DNA of 44,577 nucleotides from Candidatus Dormiibacterota bacterium (GTDB taxonomy: Bacteria; Chloroflexota; Dormibacteria; Aeolococcales; Aeolococcaceae), in NCBI GenBank assembly GCA_036495095.1, contig DASXNK010000105.1:1-44577 (forward strand), in the 5' to 3' direction. Both the position numbers and the translations under genes were made by a program. Positions within the stretch are counted from its first letter, which is position 1. Every line of letters begins with the position of its first letter. The notes under the pieces are model-generated. The model saw only the letters and a list, made by a program, of their open reading frames with translations, did no database searches and had not been told where the DNA came from. Positions 1,973 through 23,964 of this stretch are shown here, one piece after another.

Positions 1973-2021
1973 GGCATCCATCCGGCGTTCATCCTGCGTT
2001 CAGTCCACTCGGTCAGTTCAC
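1973..2021 (+). promoter_or_regulatory. PHO-box-like 11-nt direct repeats upstream of sqdB
   Basis: GTTCATCCTGC (1987-1997) is followed without a gap by GTTCAGTCCAC (1998-2008). A weaker, in-phase unit with a TCCA core lies upstream (1973-1983) and a slightly out-of-phase GGTCAGTTCAC lies downstream (2011-2021). Tandem 11-nt units starting GTTCA match the architecture of PhoP/PhoB-type boxes in actinobacteria. That the regulator is PhoP is inference. Confidence 0.5.
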
Positions 2022-2040
2022 AAGCGCGGCGGGCAGCCTG

Positions 2041-2046
2041 TACCCT
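2041..2046 (+). promoter_or_regulatory. Candidate -10 element (TACCCT), near-leaderless sqdB start
   Basis: TACCCT fits the TANNNT consensus and ends 7 nt before the sqdB ATG at 2054. The mRNA would therefore begin at or very near the start codon, as in the leaderless transcripts common in high-GC Gram-positives. There is no good Shine-Dalgarno in the gap. Confidence 0.4.
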
Positions 2047-2053
2047 GCCGGGG

Positions 2054-3316
2054 ATGCGCATCCTCGTCCTCGGAGCCGACGGCTACCTGGGGTGGCCCAC
2101 CGCCCTGCATCTCTCCGCCCGCGGCCACGACGTGGTGGCGGCCGACAGCCTCGTCCGGCGTCGCTGGGACCGGGCCTGCGGCACCCACAGCCTGGTGCCG
2201 GTGTCGACCATGCCCCGGCGGGTCGAGCGCTGGGAGGCGGAGAGCGGGCGCCGCATCCGCTGGCAGCGGCTCGACGTCTGCGACCTCCAGGCGCTGCGCT
2301 CGCTGATCGCCGCCGAGGCCCCCGAGGCGGTGGTGCACTTCGCCGAGCAGCGCTCCGCCCCCTACTCGATGATCAGCGCGAGCCACGCGATCGAGACCCA
2401 GGTCAACAACGTGGTCGGCACCCTCAACCTCCTGTTCGCGCTCCGCGACGTCGCCCCCGACTGCCACCTGGTGAAGCTCGGCACCATGGGCGAGTACGGC
2501 ACCCCGAACATCGACATCGAGGAGGGGTTCATCGACATCGAGCACAACGGCCGGCGCGACCGGCTGCCCTTCCCGAAGCGGCCGGGGTCGTTCTACCACC
2601 TCTCCAAGGTGCACGACAGCCACAACATCGAGTTCACCTGCCGGGCCTGGGGGCTGCGCGCCACCGACCTCAACCAGGGCGTGGTCTACGGCCTGTCCAC
2701 GCCGGAGAGCGACCTCCACCCGACCCTGGCGACCCGCTTCGACTACGACGACATCTGGGGCACGGCGCTCAACCGCTTCTGCACCCAGGCGGCGATCGGC
2801 CATCCCATCACGGTGTACGGGCGCGGCGGCCAGACCCGTGGCTTCATCGACATCCGCGACACGGTGCGCTGCGTCGAGCTGGCCGCGCTCAACCCGGCGG
2901 CGCCCGGCGAGTTCCGGGTGTTCAACCAGTTCACCGAGCAGTTCAGCATCCTCGACCTCGCCCACCGGGTGCAGGCGGCCCGCCAGGCCCACGGGCTCGA
3001 CACCACCGTCGCCCACCTCCCCAACCCGCGCACCGAGCTCGAGGAGCACTACTACAACGCCCGTCACCAGAAGCTCGTCGACCTCGGGCTCGAGCCCCAC
3101 CTGCTGGAGCAGACGCTGATCGACACCGTGATCACCCGGGTCGAGCGGATGCGCTCACGGGTGCGTCCGGGGCTGTTCGCGCCGCGGGTCGACTGGCGGG
3201 CGCGCGAGCAGGCGTTCAGCGAGGCCGGCCACCTCAGCGCCGGGCGCAGCGCCCGCGGCCTCGTCGGCCGCCACACCAGCCACCGCCAGGCCACTGCGCG
3301 AGTGGCCGCCCGGTAG
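2054..3316 (+). CDS. sqdB: UDP-sulfoquinovose synthase (SqdB/SQD1 family)
   Basis: An NAD-dependent extended SDR that converts UDP-glucose plus sulfite to UDP-sulfoquinovose, donor of the sulfonated headgroup of SQDG or of sulfoquinovose-bearing glycans. The Rossmann motif GADGYLGWPTALHLS is nearly that of plant SQD1 (GGDGYCGWATALYLS). The family signature GTMGEYGTPNIDIEEG gives catalytic T144-M145, and the YxxxK pair is Y181/K185 (FYHLSK). The substrate-loop segments NQGVVYG and GRGGQTRGFIDIRDT are also present. Length (420 aa) is normal. ATG 2054 is chosen because the Rossmann motif begins within seven residues. The gene converges on a GT2 with a 5-bp gap. No SqdX-type sulfolipid transferase is adjacent. 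Confidence 0.93.
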   Translation: MRILVLGADGYLGWPTALHLSARGHDVVAADSLVRRRWDRACGTHSLVPVSTMPRRVERWEAESGRRIRWQRLDVCDLQALRSLIAAEAPEAVVHFAEQRSAPYSMISASHAIETQVNNVVGTLNLLFALRDVAPDCHLVKLGTMGEYGTPNIDIEEGFIDIEHNGRRDRLPFPKRPGSFYHLSKVHDSHNIEFTCRAWGLRATDLNQGVVYGLSTPESDLHPTLATRFDYDDIWGTALNRFCTQAAIGHPITVYGRGGQTRGFIDIRDTVRCVELAALNPAAPGEFRVFNQFTEQFSILDLAHRVQAARQAHGLDTTVAHLPNPRTELEEHYYNARHQKLVDLGLEPHLLEQTLIDTVITRVERMRSRVRPGLFAPRVDWRAREQAFSEAGHLSAGRSARGLVGRHTSHRQATARVAAR

Positions 3317-10344: not shown

Positions 10345-11123
10345 GCTGGGTCTCCCTCCGCGGCCTCGGCCACCCGGTGGCGCAGCCGCCGCATGCCGCG
10401 CAGCCAGCGGTCGTGGTCGGCGGCGCGGCGCTGCGCGTAGCCCGCCACCTCGGGATGGGGGAGGATGAGGAAGCGCTCCCGGCGCACCCCGTCGAGCGCG
10501 ATCTCCGCGACCTGGTCGGGCTCGAGCAGGTCGCCGAGGATGGCGGCGGCGGCGCCCTCGGCCGCGGCCATGTCGGTGCGCACCCCCTGGGGGCAGAGCA
10601 CCGACACCCCGATCTCCTCCCCGTGGGCGATGGCGAGCCACTCGAAGAGCGAGAGCGCGGCGCTCTTGGTCACCGCGTAGGGGGCGGCGAAGACGTGGTT
10701 GACGAGCCCGGCGGCGGAGACGGTGCCGAGCAGGTGGCCGCGGCCCCGGGCCAGCATCCCCGGGATCACCGCCCGGGCGGCGTAGACGTGGGCCATCACG
10801 TTGACCCGCCAGATCCGCTCCCAGTCGGCGTCGGCCACCTCGGGGCCGCCCCGCACCGCGATGCCCGCGTTGGAGCACCAGAGATCGATCGCCCCGTGGG
10901 CCGCCTCCGCCCGCTCCACCAGCGCCACGACCTCGGCCTCCACCGAGACGTCGCAGCCGATGCCGAGGCCGCCGAACTCCGCGGCGACCCCCTCCGCGGC
11001 GGCGGCGTCGAGGTCGGCGACGACCACGGCGCGGGCCCCCTCTGCAGCGAGACGCCGGCTCAGCGCCCGGCCGATCCCCCGCCCCCCGCCGGTGACCACC
11101 GCGACGCAGCCCTCGATCCGCAT
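10341..11123 (-). CDS. Short-chain dehydrogenase/reductase
   Basis: A classical SDR of 260 aa. The cofactor motif is TGGGRGIGRA at about residues 12-21. DLDAAAAEG after strand 2 suggests NAD(H) preference, since the acidic residue binds the adenosine ribose. Other motifs are SNAGIA, catalytic Ser in GTVSAAGLVNH and YAVTK as the YxxxK pair. The Arg-rich C-terminal 40 residues (RWLRGMRRLRHRVAEAAEG) are an extension beyond the core fold. It is the first gene of a two-gene operon with the alpha-hydroxyacid oxidase, with a 4-bp overlap. A joint pathway, alcohol or hydroxyacid oxidation, is inferred; no substrate can be named. Confidence 0.88.
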   Translation of the reverse strand: MRIEGCVAVVTGGGRGIGRALSRRLAAEGARAVVVADLDAAAAEGVAAEFGGLGIGCDVSVEAEVVALVERAEAAHGAIDLWCSNAGIAVRGGPEVADADWERIWRVNVMAHVYAARAVIPGMLARGRGHLLGTVSAAGLVNHVFAAPYAVTKSAALSLFEWLAIAHGEEIGVSVLCPQGVRTDMAAAEGAAAAILGDLLEPDQVAEIALDGVRRERFLILPHPEVAGYAQRRAADHDRWLRGMRRLRHRVAEAAEGDPA

Positions 11124-11145
11124 GGACCCGATGGTAGGAGTCCGG

Positions 11146-11271
11146 ATGGCGCAAGAGTTTGAGCGCCGGTTCGTTGAAGTGAATGAGCCCGGGGAGCCCG
11201 CCACCCCCGGGCTCTTATTTTTCCCCCCGGCGCCGGCCCCGCTCCGGGCCCTCCGTACACTGCACGGGTGA
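11146..11271 (+). CDS. Possible leader ORF upstream of the HlyIII-family gene
   Basis: ATG 11146 follows TAGGAG with 5-nt spacing and opens a 41-codon frame. Its stop TGA (11269-11271) overlaps the GTG start (11268) of the downstream membrane-protein gene. A strong hairpin plus T-run (11185-11222) lies inside the ORF. The arrangement resembles a translated leader controlling an internal terminator, but the peptide shows no conservation I can assess and such ORFs arise by chance in GC-rich DNA. Confidence 0.25.
   Translation: MAQEFERRFVEVNEPGEPATPGLLFFPPAPAPLRALRTLHG
11185..11222 (+). terminator. Rho-independent terminator-like hairpin in the HlyIII leader
   Basis: A 10-bp perfect stem, GAGCCCGGGG (11185-11194) / CCCCGGGCTC (11205-11214), with a 10-nt loop is followed by TTATTTTTT. 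The T tract follows on the + strand, yet no + strand gene ends here. It therefore terminates either an unseen transcript or the leader of the gene starting at 11268 (attenuator). Confidence 0.65.
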
Positions 11272-11936
11272 GCACGCCCGCTCCCGCGAGCAGTCCCGCC
11301 AAGCCGATCCTCCGCGGCTACTCCCACGCCGTCGCCGCCGTGGTGGGAGGCGCCGGGACCGTGTTCCTCCTGGCCCGCACCGTCGGCGACGCGCCCAAGC
11401 TGATCTCGGTGCTCGTCTACGGGATCAGCCTGGTGGCGCTCTTCGGGGTGAGCGCCCTCTATCACATGGGCACGTGGAGCCCCGCCCGGCGGGCGCTGCT
11501 GCGCCGCCTCGACCACGCCAACATCTTCGTGTTCATCGCCGGCACCTACACCCCGGTGGCGGTGAACGTGCTCGACGAGGGCTGGCGGATCGCGGTGCTG
11601 GTGACCCTCTGGGGGGCCGCCCTCTGCGGCGCCGTCGCGGTGGCACCGGCGCTGCAGATCCCCCGCTGGGCGCTCACCTGCGTCTACCTGCTGATGGGGT
11701 GGGTCGGCCTGGTGGTGATGCCCCAGGTCGCCGGCCGGGTCGGCGCCGGGGTGCTGCTGCTCGCCGGCGGGGGCGCCCTCTACTCGGTGGGCGCGGTGAT
11801 CTACGCGCTCCGCCGCCCCCGGCTCTGGCCGCGGGTGTTCGGCTACCACGAGGCCTTCCACCTCCTGGTGATCGCCGCCAGCTGCCTCTTCTACGCCTTC
11901 GTCGTGGCGTTCGTGGTCCCTCACGAGCGGCCCTGA
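11268..11936 (+). CDS. Hemolysin III/TrhA family (PAQR-like) membrane protein
   Basis: A 222-aa protein with seven predicted membrane helices. It carries the three conserved HlyIII/PAQR motif regions: SALYHMGTWS (His and Ser of the metal site), LDHANIFVFIAGTYTPV, and GYHEAFHLLVI near the C-terminus with the paired histidines. These residues form a zinc site in the superfamily. Bacterial members influence membrane lipid/fatty-acid energy homeostasis; the hemolysin label is historical. The GTG start is preceded by TACACT (11256-11261), only 6 nt upstream, suggesting a leaderless transcript as an alternative to the leader ORF described above. The gene is followed by a 332-bp intergenic region. 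Confidence 0.88.
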   Translation: MSTPAPASSPAKPILRGYSHAVAAVVGGAGTVFLLARTVGDAPKLISVLVYGISLVALFGVSALYHMGTWSPARRALLRRLDHANIFVFIAGTYTPVAVNVLDEGWRIAVLVTLWGAALCGAVAVAPALQIPRWALTCVYLLMGWVGLVVMPQVAGRVGAGVLLLAGGGALYSVGAVIYALRRPRLWPRVFGYHEAFHLLVIAASCLFYAFVVAFVVPHERP

Positions 11937-11955
11937 GGCCGGCTTCGGACCGGGC

Positions 11956-11995
11956 GTTCACAACCCATTCAGCCGCGTCAGGATTCGTTTATGAT
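11956..11995 (+). promoter_or_regulatory. 11-nt GTTCA/ATTCA direct repeats and TATGAT -10 ahead of the GT/APH operon
   Basis: GTTCACAACCC (11956-11966) is directly followed by ATTCAGCCGCG (11967-11977), so TTCA recurs at 11 nt. A TATGAT -10 (11990-11995) lies 12 nt further downstream, where a PhoB-type activator would contact RNA polymerase. No good -35 is present, as expected for an activated promoter. TTCACAA is also shared with the sqdB upstream region. Confidence 0.5.
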
Positions 11996-12268
11996 TCGGA
12001 CAAGGAAGGGTTAGGAGCTGATGAGGTCGGGGGCGTCCTGGGCGGAGGTCGCAGGGGTCCAGGACGCGGTGCGGGTCGCGCGCCGGGGACCATTCCCGGG
12101 CGTCGCGGATCCGCACAGGGGTCAGGAAGTGCTGACGGTGGCCACGCCGGGTGTCCCGCGCCGCGTTCCTCCTCCGCTGTGCGGCGGAGTGCCGAGGATC
12201 GTCGCGGGCTGAGAGTCGGCCGCGACCTCGCGTGGCGGTGACGCCACAGGAAGGGAAAGGGAAGGGAG
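11996..12268 (+). other. Long leader of the GT/APH operon with a possible 63-aa uORF
   Basis: About 270 nt separate the predicted start site from the first recognised gene. An ORF from ATG 12021 (preceded by TAGGAG, 3-nt spacing) to a TGA at 12212 encodes 63 aa rich in Val/Arg/Pro with no recognisable domain. The remaining sequence is GC-rich with many potential helices. I recognise no known riboswitch class. The purine-rich AAGGGAAAGGGAAGGGAG just before 12269 is the ribosome binding site of the glycosyltransferase. Confidence 0.3.
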
Positions 12269-13663
12269 ATGGCTGTCAGGGTGATGCCGGCGCCGGACGA
12301 GGGTGCGGAGCCACAACCGGGGTGGCACGCGCTCATCGAGAGCCCCGGCGAGGTGGAGGTGCCGCTGACCGGGCGGCGCGTCCGCGGTCGCAGGGTCAGC
12401 GCGGCGATGCTGGCGCGGCGGAGCGGCGTCCGGCTCCTCATCTACACCCAGGACGGGCTCGGGCTCGGCCACCTGCGCCGGGCCAGCTCGGTGGCGGCGG
12501 AGTTCCTGCGCGGTGAGGCCGAGGGCTCGGTGCTCACCATCTCCGACTCGCCGCTGGGCTCGCTGATCCGCGATGTCCCACACCACGACTACCTCAAGCT
12601 GCCCTCGATCGTGAAGGCGGGGCCGGGCGACTGGCGGCCGCACTCGCTGCCGCTGGAGATCGGCGAGGTGCGCCGGCTGCGGAGCCGGCTGATCCTCGAG
12701 GCGGCCACCGCGTTCCGCCCCGACGTGCTGCTCGTCGACCACATGCCCCACGGCGCCCTCGGCGAGCTCCTGCCCACCCTGGCGGCGCTGCGCCACACCC
12801 CCACGCGGGTGGTGCTCGGGGTGCGTGACATCATCGACGACCCCGCGGTGGTGCATGCCCGCTGGCGCGCCGAGGGCGCCTTCGACGCCCTCGCCGAACA
12901 CTACGACCAGGTCCTGGTGTACGGCTCGTCGGAGGTCTTCGACCTTCCCGAGCAGTACGGGTGGCCGGCCGAGCTGGCCCGGATGGTGCGCTTCTGCGGC
13001 TACGTCTGCACCCCCGCCCCGGTGGCCCAGCGGCGCCTCCCCGCCCGCCGGATCGGCATGGAGCCGCGGGGCAGCATGGTGGTGGCGATGGCCGGCGGCG
13101 GCGCCGACGCCCACACCCTGATGAGCACCCTCGTCGACGCCGTGCCCCAGGTCTGCGCGGCCCGGGCCTGCACCTTCGTGATCGTCACCGGGCCGTTCAT
13201 GCCCGACGCCCAGCGCCGCGACCTCAAACGCCGCGCCGTCGGCCTGCCGGTGCGGCTGCGGACCATGGTCGGCGACCCGCTGCGCTATCTCGCCGCCGCC
13301 GACATGGTCGTGGCCATGGCCGGCTACAACACGACGATGGAGGTGCTGCGGGTCGGCACCCCGGCGCTGCTGGTGCCGCGGCGGGGTCCGAGCGCCGAGC
13401 AGCGAATGCGGGCGCAGCGCTTCGCCGACCGCGGCTGGGTGTCGCAGCTCGACCCCGACGAGCTCGAGCCGGGCCGGCTGGCGGCCGCCGTGCTCGAGGT
13501 GCTCGATCGAGGGGCGGCGACGCCCGCGGTGCCGCCCCCCGACCTCGGCGGCCTCGCCCGCGCCGCCGAGTCGCTCCACGCCGCGGCGCTGGCGGCGCGC
13601 GCCACCGTGACCGCCGACCAGCATCCGGCCGCCGCGGCCAGGGTCGGCGAACGGGTCGTGTAG
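12269..13663 (+). CDS. GT28/MurG-fold predicted glycosyltransferase (COG4671-like)
   Basis: A 464-aa GT-B fold protein. After a roughly 50-aa N-terminal extension, RLLIYTQDGLGLGHLRRASSVAAEFL is the Gly-rich, His-containing entry typical of MurG/UGT-like enzymes. LLVDHMPHGALGELLP and VVLGVRDIIDDPAVV follow, as in COG4671 predicted transferases. The C-terminal nucleotide-sugar half contains MVVAMAGGGADAH, then ADMVVAMAGYNTTMEVLRVGTPALLVPR, the donor-phosphate region (GGYNT/xxE). ATG 12269 has a strong purine-rich RBS. It is the first gene of a six-gene operon, with the next start 1 bp after its stop. It probably transfers a hexose to a soluble or lipid acceptor in the cytoplasm; donor and acceptor are unknown. 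Confidence 0.82.
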   Translation: MAVRVMPAPDEGAEPQPGWHALIESPGEVEVPLTGRRVRGRRVSAAMLARRSGVRLLIYTQDGLGLGHLRRASSVAAEFLRGEAEGSVLTISDSPLGSLIRDVPHHDYLKLPSIVKAGPGDWRPHSLPLEIGEVRRLRSRLILEAATAFRPDVLLVDHMPHGALGELLPTLAALRHTPTRVVLGVRDIIDDPAVVHARWRAEGAFDALAEHYDQVLVYGSSEVFDLPEQYGWPAELARMVRFCGYVCTPAPVAQRRLPARRIGMEPRGSMVVAMAGGGADAHTLMSTLVDAVPQVCAARACTFVIVTGPFMPDAQRRDLKRRAVGLPVRLRTMVGDPLRYLAAADMVVAMAGYNTTMEVLRVGTPALLVPRRGPSAEQRMRAQRFADRGWVSQLDPDELEPGRLAAAVLEVLDRGAATPAVPPPDLGGLARAAESLHAAALAARATVTADQHPAAAARVGERVV

Positions 13664-13664
13664 C

Positions 13665-14996
13665 GTGGACGTGGAGGGGGTGCTGTCCGGTCGCGGGGGC
13701 GACCGCCCGGTGCGGAGTCTGCTCCTCGGCGCCGGCCGCGCCCCGCTGCGGGCGCTGCTGGACTCGATGGCGGGTGGCTCCGGCACGGTGCGCGGCTGCC
13801 GGCTGCGCCGGGCGCAGCTGAAGCCGGGCAGGAAGCTCACCGCATACCACGACGTGCTCATCGCCGGCGACCCCCGGCCGGTGCCGGTGGTGGTGACCTG
13901 GCACTCCGGCGGCGTGCCCGAGGGGGCCGCGGAGCGCGCCGCCGCCGCCGAGGCGACGCTGCGCGCCGCCGGCCTGCCCGCCCGTCTGCCCCGCCTCTGG
14001 GCGGTCGACCGCGCCGCCGGCATGATCGTCCTGGCGGCGCCGCTGGACCCCGCCTTCCCCGCGCTGGCGCGGCTCTCCGACCCCGCCTCGGTGCCGGAGA
14101 CGCTGGCCCGGTGCGGGGAGGAGGCGGTGCCGGCGGCGGGCTGCGGCGTCCGCCCGCTCCGCTACCGCCCCGGGCAGCGCCACGTGCTCGAGTATCTCGG
14201 CCCCCGGCGGCTCCGCCTCTTCGTGAAGCTCTACCGGCCCGGCGAGGGGGCGCCGGTGGCGGGCGCGGTGGGCGTTCTCGCCGCGCTGCTCGAGGAGTCG
14301 GGGGTGCCGGGGCTCCACGCCGTCCGCCCCGCCGCCGTGCTCGGCGACGGCGACGCCCTCGTCTACCGCGAGGTCGCGGGCGCGGCGCTCTCGCGCTCCC
14401 TCGGCGCCGGCTGCCGCCCCGACCCCGCCCACCTCGAGCGGGTGGGGCTGATGCTCCGCGCCGTGCACGCGGCGACGCCGGCGCCGCCGTCGAGCCTGCC
14501 CGGTCGCGAGCTCGCCGCCGAGGTGCGCACCGTCGGCCGCGCCTGCGAGGCGATGGCGGCGCTCCGGCCGGACCTGGGCGCCCTCGCCGCGGCCACCGTG
14601 GAGCGCGCCTGGCGGGCGATCGCGGCGCTCGAGCAGGAGCCCGCCACCACCCTCCACGGCGACATGAAGGCGGACCACCTGCTCTGGGGCCCGGGGGGCC
14701 TCCAGGTCCTCGACACCGATCGCTGCTCCCTCGGCGACCCCGCCTACGACCTCGGCAAGATGCTCGCCGACCTGCGTTTCTGGGCGGCGGTGACGGGCTC
14801 GCCCGCCGCCGCCGGGGCCGAGCGGGCGGTGCTCGCCGCCTACGCCGGCGGGGAGCCGCGAGTGGCCAGGGCACGGCTCTACGCCGCCCTGCTGCTGGTG
14901 CGGATGGCGGCCCGGCGGGTGCCGCTGTGGCGCCCCGACTGGGCCCCCCGCACCGCCGCGCTGCTCGCCTCCGCCGCCGCCGCGGTCGACGGATGA
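13665..14996 (+). CDS. APH-fold phosphotransferase 1 (canonical HGD)
   Basis: A 443-aa aminoglycoside-phosphotransferase/choline-kinase-fold protein. The N-lobe (about residues 50-200) includes RLFVKLYRPGEGA with the likely ATP Lys. The C-lobe has the catalytic loop LHGDMKADHLLW with D333. The usual Asn of HGDxxxxN is replaced by His, in ADHLL. The metal motif is VLDTDRCSLGDPAYDLGKML. GTG 13665 lies 1 bp after the preceding stop. The N-terminal 130 residues look like an extra, partly duplicated kinase N-lobe (LKPGRKLTAYHDVLI resembles the Arg-rich segment in the two-domain relatives downstream). It probably phosphorylates a sugar or another small alcohol. Antibiotic resistance is unlikely, given four such genes in a glycosyltransferase operon. 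Confidence 0.78.
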   Translation: MDVEGVLSGRGGDRPVRSLLLGAGRAPLRALLDSMAGGSGTVRGCRLRRAQLKPGRKLTAYHDVLIAGDPRPVPVVVTWHSGGVPEGAAERAAAAEATLRAAGLPARLPRLWAVDRAAGMIVLAAPLDPAFPALARLSDPASVPETLARCGEEAVPAAGCGVRPLRYRPGQRHVLEYLGPRRLRLFVKLYRPGEGAPVAGAVGVLAALLEESGVPGLHAVRPAAVLGDGDALVYREVAGAALSRSLGAGCRPDPAHLERVGLMLRAVHAATPAPPSSLPGRELAAEVRTVGRACEAMAALRPDLGALAAATVERAWRAIAALEQEPATTLHGDMKADHLLWGPGGLQVLDTDRCSLGDPAYDLGKMLADLRFWAAVTGSPAAAGAERAVLAAYAGGEPRVARARLYAALLLVRMAARRVPLWRPDWAPRTAALLASAAAAVDG

Positions 14997-16201
14997 CCCG
15001 GCTCCCCGCCGGGCTCGACCCGGCGCTTCCCGGCCTGGGCGCCGCGCTCGACCCGGATGCGGTGGCCCTGCGCTTCCAGCGACGCTGGCCGGCGCCGGGC
15101 GATCCCCCGGCGATCCGCGGCTGCACCGTCCAGCACCGGCGCTGGTCGCCCGGGGTCGAATGCGAGGCGGTGTGCCTGCTCACCACCTCGCGGTCGCCGG
15201 TGCCCACCCTCGGGGTGGTCACGGTGCGGCCGGAGGGGATCAGCCACCGCCTCTACGAGGATGACCCCGGGCTCGAGGGGCTCGCCGCGGCCGCCGACCC
15301 GGCGCGGATGCGGGACTGGCTGGCGGAGCGGCTGGGGATCGCGGTGGGCACCTGCACCGTGGTCCCGTTGAGCTACCGGCCGGGGCTCCGCTGCGTGCTC
15401 CGCTACCGGCTCGGCGCCGGGCCCGGCCCGGTCTACGCCAAGGTGGTCGCGGAGGGCGTCTTCGAGATCCTGGCCGGTGCCGCGACGGCGCTCGGCGGCG
15501 AGCTCGCGCCGGCGCTGGTCGGGGTGGCCCCGGCATGGCGCCTGGTCGCCCAGGCCGACGCCGGCGGCCACAGCCTGCGCAGCCTCGCCGCCGACCCGCC
15601 GCCCCCGGGCGCGGCGGCGCAGCTGCGCGCCGCGGGACGGCTGCTCGCCCGCCTCCACTCCCGCTCCGGGCCGCCCGGCGAGACCCGCACCCTGAGCGGC
15701 GACGCCGCCGCGCTCGGCGGGCTGCTCGCCGCCGTCGAGAGCGCCCTGCCGTCGAGCGCGGCGGCCTGGGTCGACGCCGCCGCCCGCCTCTCCGCGATCG
15801 GAGACGGTGAGCCACCGGCCCCCGCCCACGGTGCGCTGCGCCTCGACCAGGTGCACCTCGGCGAGGCCGGGCCCGCGCTCATCGACCTCGACTCGTACTG
15901 CTGGGCCGAGCCTGCCCGCGACCTCGGCAACCTGCTCGCCTACCTCCACTGGCGCGAGATCCGCCGGCCCGCCGCGGCGGCCTCGCTCGCCGGGGTGCGT
16001 GCCGCGCTGCTCGAGGGCCACGCCGAGGTGTGGGGCGCGGCGGTCGACCCCGGCCGGATCGCGCTCCACCAGGCGGCCTCGTCGCTGAAGATCGCCGGGC
16101 GCTGCCTCCAGAAGCTCGCCGTCGCCGAGTGGGAGCACCTCCCCCGGCTGGTGGAGGCGGCGCTCGACGGGCTCGGCGCCGCCGCCGGGACCCCGGGATG
16201 A
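14993..16201 (+). CDS. APH-fold protein 2, predicted pseudokinase (HGD to HGA)
   Basis: A 402-aa APH-like protein overlapping its neighbours by ATGA at both ends. The N-terminal half contains VVPLSYRPGLRCVLRYRLG followed by a VYAKVVAEG strand, which supplies the ATP-binding Lys. The expected catalytic HGD reads AHGALRLDQVHL, so the catalytic Asp is A281. The metal-binding segment is kept (ALIDLDSYCWAEPARDLGNLLAYL). The frame is uninterrupted and codon use normal, so this is not decay. It may be a regulatory partner or scaffold for the active paralogues, or may use another residue; both are inference. The N-terminus shares PGxxCxLRY/RPG features with APH 1, indicating paralogy. Confidence 0.72.
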   Translation: MTRLPAGLDPALPGLGAALDPDAVALRFQRRWPAPGDPPAIRGCTVQHRRWSPGVECEAVCLLTTSRSPVPTLGVVTVRPEGISHRLYEDDPGLEGLAAAADPARMRDWLAERLGIAVGTCTVVPLSYRPGLRCVLRYRLGAGPGPVYAKVVAEGVFEILAGAATALGGELAPALVGVAPAWRLVAQADAGGHSLRSLAADPPPPGAAAQLRAAGRLLARLHSRSGPPGETRTLSGDAAALGGLLAAVESALPSSAAAWVDAAARLSAIGDGEPPAPAHGALRLDQVHLGEAGPALIDLDSYCWAEPARDLGNLLAYLHWREIRRPAAAASLAGVRAALLEGHAEVWGAAVDPGRIALHQAASSLKIAGRCLQKLAVAEWEHLPRLVEAALDGLGAAAGTPG

Positions 16202-17166
16202 GCGGCTCCCGCGGCCCGCTGCTCGTGCAGGGCGCCGCCGAGGCGCTCGACCCCCACCGGATGTCGCGGCGGCTGGCGCCGTTCCTCGAGCCCGCCGGCC
16301 CGGGGCTGCGGGTGCTCGCCGCCCGGGTGGTGGCGGTGGCGCCGGAGCGGCGCGCCGTGGTGGCCTACGACACCGGCGGCGCCGCCGGCCCCGGCCCGGC
16401 GCTGATCGCCAAGGTGTACGCCGACCCGGGGCGCGCCGGCCGGCTCCACGAGCTGCTCGGCCGCCTCGAGGAGCTCGGCATCGCCGCTCCCCGTCCGGTC
16501 GCCCACCTCCCCGAGCTGGGCATGGTGGTGATGACCGCCGTGGCGGGCCGCACCCTCGACGCACTCGGCGGCGCAGAGCGGGTCGCCGGGGTGGAGGCTG
16601 CGGCGGCGTGGCTGGCCGCCCTGCACGGCTCGGGCCTCGAGCTCGACCGCACCTTCGACCTCGCCAGCGAGAGCCGCAACCTGGTCAGCTGGGGGCGGCA
16701 GGTGGCGGCCCTCCATCCCTCCACCGCCATCGCCGTCGAGCGGCTGCTCGAGCGGCTCGACGGCCTCGCCGGCGACCTCCGCCTGGCGACCGCCACCCCG
16801 CTCCACAAGGACTTCCACCACCAGCACACCCGCTTCGGCGAGGCCGGCGTGGTGGTGATCGACCTCGACGAGGCGCGCGCCGGCGACCCCGCCTTCGACG
16901 CCGCCCACTTCGCCGCCAACCTGCGCCTCCTCGAGCTGCGCGAGGGCACGGCGGACGGCGGGCTCGAGGCCGCCTTCCTCGACGCCTACGCCGCCCGCAC
17001 CGGGTACGCGCCCGACCGGCGCCACCGCTGGTGCCACGCGTACACCTGCCTGAAGATCGCCCGCCAGCTGGTCCGCGGACGGGGACCCGCCCCGGCGCCG
17101 GCCGGCGCCGAGCGCGAGCGGCAGCTGGGGCTGATCCTCGGGGAGGGGCTGCGGTGCCCGGGGTGA
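16198..17166 (+). CDS. APH-fold phosphotransferase 3 (HKD variant)
   Basis: A compact 322-aa APH-like kinase. The N-lobe has AVVAYDTGG followed by ALIAKVYADPGRAGRLHELL (ATP Lys in AKVY) and MVVMTAVAGRTLDAL (hinge). The catalytic loop is LHKDFHHQHT (residues 202-211): the Gly of HGD is Lys but D205 is kept, and the region is unusually His-rich. The metal motif is VVIDLDEARAGDPAFDAAHFAANL. It overlaps APH 2 by 4 bp and the GT4 gene by 13 bp, so it is translationally coupled. HxDFHxxH catalytic loops occur in real kinases of this fold, so activity is expected. Substrate unknown. Confidence 0.78.
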   Translation: MSGSRGPLLVQGAAEALDPHRMSRRLAPFLEPAGPGLRVLAARVVAVAPERRAVVAYDTGGAAGPGPALIAKVYADPGRAGRLHELLGRLEELGIAAPRPVAHLPELGMVVMTAVAGRTLDALGGAERVAGVEAAAAWLAALHGSGLELDRTFDLASESRNLVSWGRQVAALHPSTAIAVERLLERLDGLAGDLRLATATPLHKDFHHQHTRFGEAGVVVIDLDEARAGDPAFDAAHFAANLRLLELREGTADGGLEAAFLDAYAARTGYAPDRRHRWCHAYTCLKIARQLVRGRGPAPAPAGAERERQLGLILGEGLRCPG

Positions 17167-18392
17167 GGGTGGCCTACGTGGTGCGGAGCTGGCCGCGGCT
17201 CTCCCAGACCTTCGTCCTCAACGAGGTCCTGGCCCTGGAGCGGCTGGGGGTGGGGATCACGATCTTCGCCATGGCCCGAGCCGGCGAGAGCGTGGTGCAG
17301 CCTCAGCTCGCCGAGCTGGCGGCGGCGGTGCACCACCTCGACCCCGGTCCGGTGGCGGGGATCGGCGCCCACCTCCGGCTGGCGGCGCGCTCGCCCGGCC
17401 GCTACCTCGCCACCCTCGGTTTCGCGCTCAGCCGGCGCGGGTTGCTGGGCGGCTACACCCAGGGCGGCGCCGCCCGCTCCTTCCACCGCGCCGCGCTCGT
17501 CGCCGCCCGCCTCGCCGCCGAGCCGGGCGCCCCCCACACCCACATCCACGCCCACTTCGCCCACGACCCGGCGCTGATCGGGCTGCTCGTGCACCGCCTC
17601 ACCGGCCTGCCCTTCAGCTTCACCGCCCACGCCCGCGACCTCTACCAGATTCCCGGGGCGGCACTTCGCGGACGGGTCCGCGAGGCCTCGGCGGTGGTCA
17701 CCTGCTGCCGCACCAACGCCGACCACATCGCCGCCGTGGTCGGCGCCGCCGGGCCCCCGGTCGAGCTCGTCTACCACGGCGTCGACCTGGGTGTGTTCCG
17801 CCCCCTTCCGGAGCGTCCCGAGCGCGACCTGCCGCTGCTGGTCTCGGTGGGCCGGCTGGTGGAGAAGAAGGGATTCGACGACCTGCTCCGCGCCTGCGCG
17901 GTGGCCGCCGGCCGGGGGCGGCGCTTCGCCTGCGAGATCTACGGCGACGGCCCCTGCCGGGATGAGCTCGAGGCGCTGCGCGACCGCCTCGGCCTCGCCG
18001 GGGTGGTGCGCTTCCTGGGGGCGCGGACCCAGGCGGAGCTGCTCGGCGCGTACCAGCGAGCCGACCTCGTCGCGCTCACCCCGCGGGTGACCGCCGACGG
18101 CGACCGTGACGGCGTCCCCAACGTGCTCGTCGAGGCGATGGCCTGCGGCATCCCGGTGCTCGCCACCCGGGTGGGCGGGGTCGCGGAGCTGGTGACCGGG
18201 GGCGCCGATGGCCTGCTCGCCCCCGCCGGCGACGTCGCCGCCATCGCCGCCGGCCTGGAGGAGCTGCTCGACGACGCCGGGCGGCGGCGGCGGCTCGGCG
18301 AGGCGGCGGCGCGCAGCGCCCTGCGTTTCGATGGCAGGGCCGCCGCGCTCCGGCTCGCCGCGCTCTTCGACCACCGCAGCGGCGCCGCGTGA
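17154..18392 (+). CDS. GT4 glycosyltransferase
   Basis: A 412-aa retaining GT-B enzyme. The start VAYVVRSWPRLSQTFVLNEVLALERLGV is typical of exopolysaccharide/colanic-acid-type GT4 proteins (WcaL/ExpE-like). HIHAHFAHDPALIGLLV and FSFTAHARDLY follow. The donor domain has LLVSVGRLVEKKGFDDLL, then the ExFGxxxxE-like region VPNVLVEAMACGIPVLATRVGGVAELV with conserved EA..G and E. GTG 17154 is preferred over GTG 17163 because GGGAGGGG lies 5 nt before it; it overlaps APH 3 by 13 bp. It acts in the cytoplasm on a nucleotide-sugar donor. Its placement between APH kinases suggests the same glycoconjugate pathway. I see no SqdX-specific features. Confidence 0.88.
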   Translation: MPGVRVAYVVRSWPRLSQTFVLNEVLALERLGVGITIFAMARAGESVVQPQLAELAAAVHHLDPGPVAGIGAHLRLAARSPGRYLATLGFALSRRGLLGGYTQGGAARSFHRAALVAARLAAEPGAPHTHIHAHFAHDPALIGLLVHRLTGLPFSFTAHARDLYQIPGAALRGRVREASAVVTCCRTNADHIAAVVGAAGPPVELVYHGVDLGVFRPLPERPERDLPLLVSVGRLVEKKGFDDLLRACAVAAGRGRRFACEIYGDGPCRDELEALRDRLGLAGVVRFLGARTQAELLGAYQRADLVALTPRVTADGDRDGVPNVLVEAMACGIPVLATRVGGVAELVTGGADGLLAPAGDVAAIAAGLEELLDDAGRRRRLGEAAARSALRFDGRAAALRLAALFDHRSGAA

Positions 18393-19693
18393 TCAGCCCC
18401 GTCCGCGCGGCCTTCGACCCGCTGCCGAGCGTGCCCCTCCGCCACCGCTTTCCCCACCTCGTCGAGGCCTTCGACACCGAGGCGATGGGCGCCCACCTCC
18501 AGCGTGCGCTGCTCGACGGCACCGGCTTCGAGGCCGAGGTCTGCGGCCGGCCGCGGGCCGAGCTCGACGGCGACGCCTGCTCGTTCCAGTACCGGCTGGG
18601 GGTGCGCGATCCCGGCGGCGACCGGCGCGAGCTGCTCGTGCTCGGGACGATGCTCCCCGCCCCGGGTGCCGCCGCCGCCTACGAGCGAGAGGTGCTCGCC
18701 CCGGTGGCGGCCGGCTGGGCGCCCCAGTGCCCCGCCCCCCGGGCCACCGCCGCCGTGGAGACGCTGGGGATGGCGGTGAGCGTCTTCCCGGTGACCGGGG
18801 AGGTGCCCGCGCTGGTGGCCGCCACCGACCCCGCTCGGGTGGCCGCGGTGCTGGGCTCGCCGGTCGAGACCGCCGACCTGGTCCGCCTCCGGCGCTCCGG
18901 CGGCGCGGTGCTCCTCTACCGCCGCGCCGGGGGTGGCGACGTCTTCGGCAAGGCCGGCTACGCCGCCTCCGCCGAGCTGGTGACCGCGGTGCTGGAGGCG
19001 CTGCCTGGCGGCGGCGAGGGCGGGGTCGCCCACCCCCGGGTCCTCGGCCGCTCCGCCGAGCTCGACCTCACCCTGATCTCACGGGTCCCGGGACGCCGCC
19101 CCGACCTGCGGGTGGCCGCCGACCGCGAGGCCGCGGTGGGGGCCGCCGGCCGGGTGGGGGTGGCGCTGCACAGCTCGGCGATCGCGGCCGGCCCCGCCCA
19201 CACCCTCGGCGACGAGCTCGCCCGGGCGGCGGCGGCGGTGGCGGCGATCGCCGTCTACATTCCCGAGGTGGCGGCATGGCTGGAGGGAGCGCTGCGGGGG
19301 GCACGGGCCGCCGCCGGCCGCAGCCCGGAGGCGCCGCTGGCACTCGCCCACGGCGACCTCACTCCCTCGCAGCTGCTGCTCGACCCCGGCGGGGTCGGGG
19401 TGATCGACTTCGACGGCGTCTGCCAGGCCGAGCCGGCCTTCGACCTCGGCCGCTTTCTCGCCTACCTGTGGACGGGGCTGGCCAAGGTGGGCGACCCCGA
19501 CGGCGACGGCCACGCCGGGCGGCTGCTGGCCGCATATGCGGCCGCGGGCGGGGCCGAGGTGGCGACGGAGCGCGTCGAGGCCTATGCGATCGCCAGCCTG
19601 GTGCAGATGGCGGCGCACAGCTGGCGGACGCTCAAGACCGCCCGGCTGTTCCTCGCCTGCGAGGTGCTCGACGGGCGGCTGCGGCGGCTCTGA
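18389..19693 (+). CDS. APH-fold phosphotransferase 4
   Basis: A 434-aa APH-like protein starting at GTG 18389, which overlaps the GT4 stop (GTGA). The N-terminal half has SFQYRLGV and RRELLVLGTM, then a second lobe GAVLLYRRAGGGDVFGKAGY with the candidate ATP Lys (GKA). The catalytic loop LAHGDLTPSQLLL (H321-G322-D323) keeps HGD but again lacks the downstream Asn. The metal motif is GVIDFDGVCQAEPAFDLGRFLAYLW. It is the last gene of the + operon; its stop is 4 bp from the stop of the convergent ABC exporter. The two-lobed N-terminus resembles APH 1 and APH 2, arguing for ancestral duplication inside the operon. Confidence 0.78.
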   Translation: MISPVRAAFDPLPSVPLRHRFPHLVEAFDTEAMGAHLQRALLDGTGFEAEVCGRPRAELDGDACSFQYRLGVRDPGGDRRELLVLGTMLPAPGAAAAYEREVLAPVAAGWAPQCPAPRATAAVETLGMAVSVFPVTGEVPALVAATDPARVAAVLGSPVETADLVRLRRSGGAVLLYRRAGGGDVFGKAGYAASAELVTAVLEALPGGGEGGVAHPRVLGRSAELDLTLISRVPGRRPDLRVAADREAAVGAAGRVGVALHSSAIAAGPAHTLGDELARAAAAVAAIAVYIPEVAAWLEGALRGARAAAGRSPEAPLALAHGDLTPSQLLLDPGGVGVIDFDGVCQAEPAFDLGRFLAYLWTGLAKVGDPDGDGHAGRLLAAYAAAGGAEVATERVEAYAIASLVQMAAHSWRTLKTARLFLACEVLDGRLRRL

Positions 19694-23944: not shown

Positions 23945-23964
23945 CCTTAATGCAACCTTAACCC
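23945..23964 (-). promoter_or_regulatory. 11-nt spaced CCTTAA direct repeat upstream of the export operon
   Basis: The + strand reads CCTTAA-TGCAA-CCTTAA-CCC (23945-23964). Read toward the lipoprotein gene it is GTTAAGGTTGC-ATTAAGG, again an 11-nt period and again G-TT-A followed by A-TT-A, as at 11956. It is the most A/T-rich patch of this intergenic region and sits 66 bp from the ATG at 23879. Confidence 0.4.

Follow-up and report, generated by a model that had tools for sequence, protein, structure and literature searches.

Phased 11-nt TTCA repeats at a candidate activator-dependent promoter of a glycosyltransferase/APH operon in Candidatus Dormiibacterota

The GT/APH operon and its upstream site

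The window, by which we mean the whole 44,577-nt stretch of Candidatus Dormiibacterota DNA that was analysed, harbours an operon ordered as a GT28-C-like glycosyltransferase (GT), three APH-like kinases, an EpsE-like GT4 and one more APH. The operon is preceded by a pair of 11-nt repeats, and the end of a TrhA/hemolysin III gene lies 19 bases upstream of this box. The features of the region are as follows.

11956..11966, plus strand: operator unit 1, GTTCACAACCC, a sequence of a class that is rare genome-wide
11967..11977, plus strand: operator unit 2, ATTCAGCCGCG, occupying the -35 position with an 11-nt period
11990..11995, plus strand: -10 element TATGAT, the sole TAT[AG]AT on both window strands; predicted transcription start ~12002
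12002..12268, plus strand: predicted 5' leader of ~267 nt, derived from the -10 and the ATG at 12269
12269..13663, plus strand: GT28-C-like glycosyltransferase (Pfam Glyco_tran_28_C), the first gene of the operon here, conserved in Actinobacteria
13665..14996, plus strand: APH-family phosphotransferase (Pfam APH)
14996..16201, plus strand: APH-family phosphotransferase (Pfam APH), start approximate
16030..17166, plus strand: APH-family phosphotransferase (Pfam APH), true start probably later
17169..18392, plus strand: GT4 glycosyltransferase, EpsE-like (Pfam and NCBIfam matches inside the ORF 16608-18392)
18389..19693, plus strand: APH-family phosphotransferase (Pfam APH)

The box at 11956-11977 consists of GTTCACAACCC followed directly by ATTCAGCCGCG, and a 12-nt gap separates it from TATGAT at 11990-11995. 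A first-pass annotation of this DNA had described these repeats, their distance from TATGAT and the lack of a -35, and both its coordinates and its letters are exact. Its further proposal, that the layout is activator-dependent, is supported by three observations: a sigma-70 scan of 11000-13000 found no -35-bearing promoter, the two strands of the 44.6-kb, ~75 percent GC window together contain a single TAT[AG]AT, and phased TTCA repeats are present at orthologous actinobacterial operons (see below). Tandem operators of the OmpR/PhoB family are recognized by head-to-tail half-sites with a 10-11 nt period, as present at 11956-11977, and by a box that takes the place of the -35 with the -10 located 10-12 nt downstream, which here is 12 nt to TATGAT.

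The predicted 267-nt leader (12002-12268) folds more stably than shuffled sequence (z-score -2.65) and contains a 63-codon ORF starting at 12021. It gave no Rfam match, and no known RNA families were found within the window.

The sqdB promoter and the rarity of the box

Some 10 kb from this site, a second set of repeats precedes sqdB.

1976..2008, plus strand: sqdB operator of three units, ATCCATCCGGC GTTCATCCTGC GTTCAGTCCAC, the first weak and the last two kept in the sister species
2017..2022, plus strand: sqdB -35, TTCACA, with an 18-nt spacer to TACCCT; conserved in the sister species
2041..2046, plus strand: sqdB -10, TACCCT, 7 nt upstream of the ATG; identical in the sister species
2054..3316, plus strand: sqdB, UDP-sulfoquinovose synthase; 533-bit match to 1qrr, and NF041015 matched at full length but below its cut-off

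The earlier naming of this gene as sqdB stands, being supported by a full-length match to the SQD1 structure 1qrr (533 bits, residues 2-382), with the SFYHLSKVHDS segment of the catalytic Y-x3-K region retained. The strong repeats (1987-2008) and the weak unit that begins at 1976 all lie upstream of a conventional -35/-10 promoter and, since the -10 is only 7 nt before the ATG, the mRNA is likely leaderless. In the sister genome (G008) the box, -35 and -10 are retained, although 8 nt after the second unit have changed. Beyond the genus, the box was absent in 28 of the 28 other orthologues examined.

The first-pass annotation assigned the same repeat architecture to both sites and pointed to sequence shared between them. 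The repeat class is indeed the same, and GTTCACAA is common to both, but the placements differ, being class II-like at 11956 and class I-like at sqdB. Likewise, GTTCACAA plays differing roles: the copy at sqdB (2016-2023) contains the -35, whereas the 11956 copy forms repeat unit 1, with 27 nt between it and the -10.

The box is rare. GTTCAN6RTTCA has six sites in the 4.375-Mb genome, two of which are the 11956 site and sqdB, against none for a backwards-pattern control. For the looser TTCAN7TTCA, the window's genome has 16 sites and the sister genome 18, against a single control site in each. By hand count, and among the spacings listed, the 11-nt TTCA period stands ~3-fold above spacings that are not multiples of three; at multiples of three, codons (TTC-A..) account for most of the pairs. 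This excess makes any one TTCA-N7-TTCA site more likely real than chance, though some are chance: roughly a third are expected to be so, and some are intragenic. The corresponding background, estimated from the spacing scan at ~5 sites per genome for any off-codon spacing, lends some support to a model in which the repeat at 11956 arose by chance and the operon is driven, without any regulator, by an ordinary weak promoter whose -35 is poor. We consider this quite improbable, as a scarce box, a correctly spaced and unique -10 and the phasing of repeats before orthologous operons would all have to coincide.

Conservation in relatives and the phosphate question

Conservation of the operon extends to Geodermatophilaceae, Intrasporangiaceae, Nocardioidaceae and others, usually with an SDR epimerase gene first. 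The closest family member with the GT gene is Ca. Dormiibacterota CP_BM_ER_82, and the sister contig derives from the CF_96 MAG. No DNA matching the GT upstream region was found in G008 or G009, the G008 contig beginning inside the glycosyltransferase gene. The comparison of orthologous upstream regions that had been suggested earlier gave a divided answer. In the 320 bases upstream of the first operon gene, 5/13 relatives, Actinobacteria among them, carry exact TTCA pairs spaced by 11 or 22 nt (shuffle control: mean 0.06, maximum 2 in 3000 trials), and off-phase pairs of spacings give 0 or 1; these regions are otherwise at most ~63 percent identical, and one of them (L138) carries four phased units. 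The nearest family relative (L132), on the other hand, has no phased repeats before the operon, and no such repeats, including 11-nt CTTAAC-type ones, were found upstream of cyanobacterial and other distant GT homologues. Upstream of the GT operons, a PHO-unit model built from actinobacterial pstS units gives the most significant unit spacings as 11 nt (p 3e-9) and 22 nt (p 8e-10), and no other spacing does better than p 8e-5. On the strength of this phasing and the 5/13 relatives, the 11-nt TTCA repeats appear, judged from sequence, to be a conserved operator class.

The match to the PHO model raises the question of phosphate control. The first-pass annotation envisaged a phosphate trigger, and the corresponding model holds that the box is a true PHO box through which phosphate starvation, via a RegX3/PhoP-type regulator, switches on sqdB and the GT/APH operon, so that sulfolipid and glycoconjugates take the place of phospholipids. 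The PHO core in Streptomyces is GTTCACC (PMC4415409), and every actinobacterial pstS promoter found in the same genomes, used as a positive control, carries GTTCAYC-N4-GTTCAYC or a close variant; one such pstS box contains GTTAACC, which suggests that both letters are interchangeable there. The actinobacterial operon boxes match the PHO model (Fisher p 4e-9) and, with the pairs scoring best at 11 and 22 nt, the GT operon may be a Pho target in Actinobacteria. Scored with this model, which is built from actinobacterial units and not the host's, the GT upstream region of the window reaches a modest 4.2 (p 0.027) and that of sqdB 16.1 (p 0.001).

Within the genus of the window, by contrast, pstC, pstS and regX3-like genes carry TTAA-N7-TTAA repeats, whose half-site differs from that of the 11956 box. 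TTAA pairs form eight distinct sites in the window's genome, four of them on the pst contig. Mixed TTAA/TTCA pairs number just three, close to the composition expectation, whilst many would be expected if the half-sites were freely interchangeable; as far as pair counts can tell, the two therefore seem to represent distinct specificities. As six mixed pairs occur in the less complete sister genome, it is chiefly the window's genome that supports this separation. In the recognition helix and wing, M. tuberculosis RegX3 has HVKRLRSK and TVRGLGYK, which in the RegX3-like regulators are replaced by HVRWLREK and TVF.VGYR, a difference that would fit an altered half-site. The promoter sequences thus do not support phosphate control of sqdB and the operon in this organism, although a looser mode of binding might still allow it, and the PHO-box model, including the proposed lipid swap, appears unlikely here. 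An ancestral phosphate link for the operon is conceivable, since in Actinobacteria the boxes before the operon are similar to the PHO boxes at pstS in the same genomes.

As separate observations, the Pho-type boxes of the genus are CTTAA-N6-CTTAA or similar (G000 C211: L069 1758; L069 8956, minus strand; L068, upstream of pstS), unlike the actinobacterial GTTCACC, and the RegX3-like regulators of the genus have W and F in place of R in the recognition helix and wing.

Candidate regulators, a proposed mechanism and known systems

If not a Pho regulator, which protein could read the box? The genome has 36 Trans_reg_C matches. Among 30 regulator loci examined, an OmpR-family regulator gene (C14, at L062) carries the same box 38 nt before its own start, the only TTCA pair in the set; three RegX3-like loci have TTAA-type boxes, one of them weak, and C25 (L044), whose helix is PhoB-like, lacks a box upstream. 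Naming the regulator by autoregulation was rejected, the TTCA pair being found at C14 alone among the 30 loci. A CutR-type motif was also rejected, as CutR reads TAWATAAA rather than TTCA repeats (PMC12802291). In three Geodermatophilaceae loci (L136, L138 and L144) the SDR-GT-APH operon is immediately preceded by an OmpR-family regulator gene, accompanied in L138 by a histidine kinase. Several paralogues match this adjacent regulator about equally (45-52 percent), and a TTCA box is absent from the regulator's own promoter.

Whether the operon and sqdB form one regulon, as the first-pass annotation had it, is a further question. In favour are the rare box class common to both, their position 10 kb apart and the retention of the sqdB box in the sister species; on the other side, TTCA boxes with differing flanks also precede unrelated genes for a hydrogenase (assigned from its translated start), a sortase, RND efflux and a UDP-glycosyltransferase. 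This spread suggests that the TTCA box class probably serves several regulators. An alternative is thus that separate paralogous OmpR-family regulators (of BaeR, CusR or adjacent-kinase type, perhaps responding to envelope stress) are employed, so that GT/APH and sqdB are not one regulon. The number of Trans_reg_C matches, the differing flanks and the dedicated regulator adjoining the operon in Geodermatophilaceae all favour this, as does PolR, a second system in Microlunatus that reads GTTCAC-N5-GTTCAC (PMC6754071); the GCGTTCA-type flanks common to sqdB and the 11956 site, and their location within 10 kb, argue against it. We regard separate regulators as a tentative possibility. That one regulator governs both sqdB and the GT/APH operon is itself plausible from the boxes, at well below even odds, given the differing placements, the several paralogous regulators and the boxes before hydrogenase, sortase and efflux genes.

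Further sites were noted in passing. Between divergent UDP-glycosyltransferase and AcrB-type efflux genes (L029 15680-15880, G000 C107), phased TTCA repeats run on both strands with up to four 11-nt units, and those before a sortase-domain gene (L026 7110, L203, L210) are conserved in all three species of the genus. Within the window, CTTAATGCAACCTTAACC (23946-23961) is flanked by a minus-strand gene for a beta-propeller lipoprotein and a gene for a PucR-like regulator; its orientation is reversed relative to the lipoprotein gene, and it is retained at the same gene in G009 and upstream of another gene in G008.

We favour, with a probability of about two in three (0.68), a reading of 11956-11995 as an activator-dependent GT/APH promoter with an OmpR/PhoB-type class II operator. 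The sequence, its rarity and phasing, the -10, the phased repeats at orthologous operons and the retained sqdB box are observed; the regulator family, the activation and any control shared with sqdB are inferred. Under this reading, the two head-to-tail 11-nt half-sites would substitute for a -35 and be bound by a tandem dimer of a predicted OmpR/PhoB-family response regulator, which would recruit sigma-70 RNA polymerase to TATGAT by class II activation. At sqdB, an operator of the same class would act from a class I position upstream of the -35. The operator class would be an old feature of the operon, also present in Actinobacteria and PHO-box-like there, and the regulator binding the 11956 box in this genus is probably not a TTAA-reading RegX3/Pho regulator. 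A bolder scenario, which we consider doubtful, is that a GTTCA-reading OmpR-family regulator other than Pho co-controls sulfolipid and the GT/APH glycoconjugate in Dormibacterota, with an operator inherited from an ancestral Pho-type operator still used by Actinobacteria at the same operon, the Pho regulator of Dormibacterota having shifted to TTAA via changes in its recognition helix.

The 11956 site offers a way into the regulation of an SDR-GT-APH operon that is widespread, uncharacterised and common to Actinobacteria and Dormibacterota, and a testable case of a Pho half-site shift between phyla in which an operon would retain the older type. If sqdB and the operon share a regulator, a membrane sulfolipid and a surface glycoconjugate would be made together in this uncultured soil phylum.

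Three known systems resemble the site. In Escherichia coli PhoB class II promoters, two 11-nt units replace the -35 and the -10 lies ~10-12 nt downstream. The 11956 site shares this arrangement of two units for a -35 with a downstream -10, but its half-site is TTCA and not TGTCA. The actinobacterial PHO box (Streptomyces PhoP) likewise has 11-nt head-to-tail units with a TTCA core at the promoter, and its class also precedes the orthologous operon in Actinobacteria; in contrast, the 11956 units are GTTCACA and ATTCAGC, without the usual YC ending, and the window's genus has TTAA units at its pst genes. In Microlunatus phosphovorus, the PolR box, GTTCACnnnnnGTTCaC, controls polyphosphate and phosphate-transport genes and its reader is not PhoP (PMC6754071). 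This box has the same half-site and period as the 11956 site, from which it differs in the second unit, ATTCAG at 11956.
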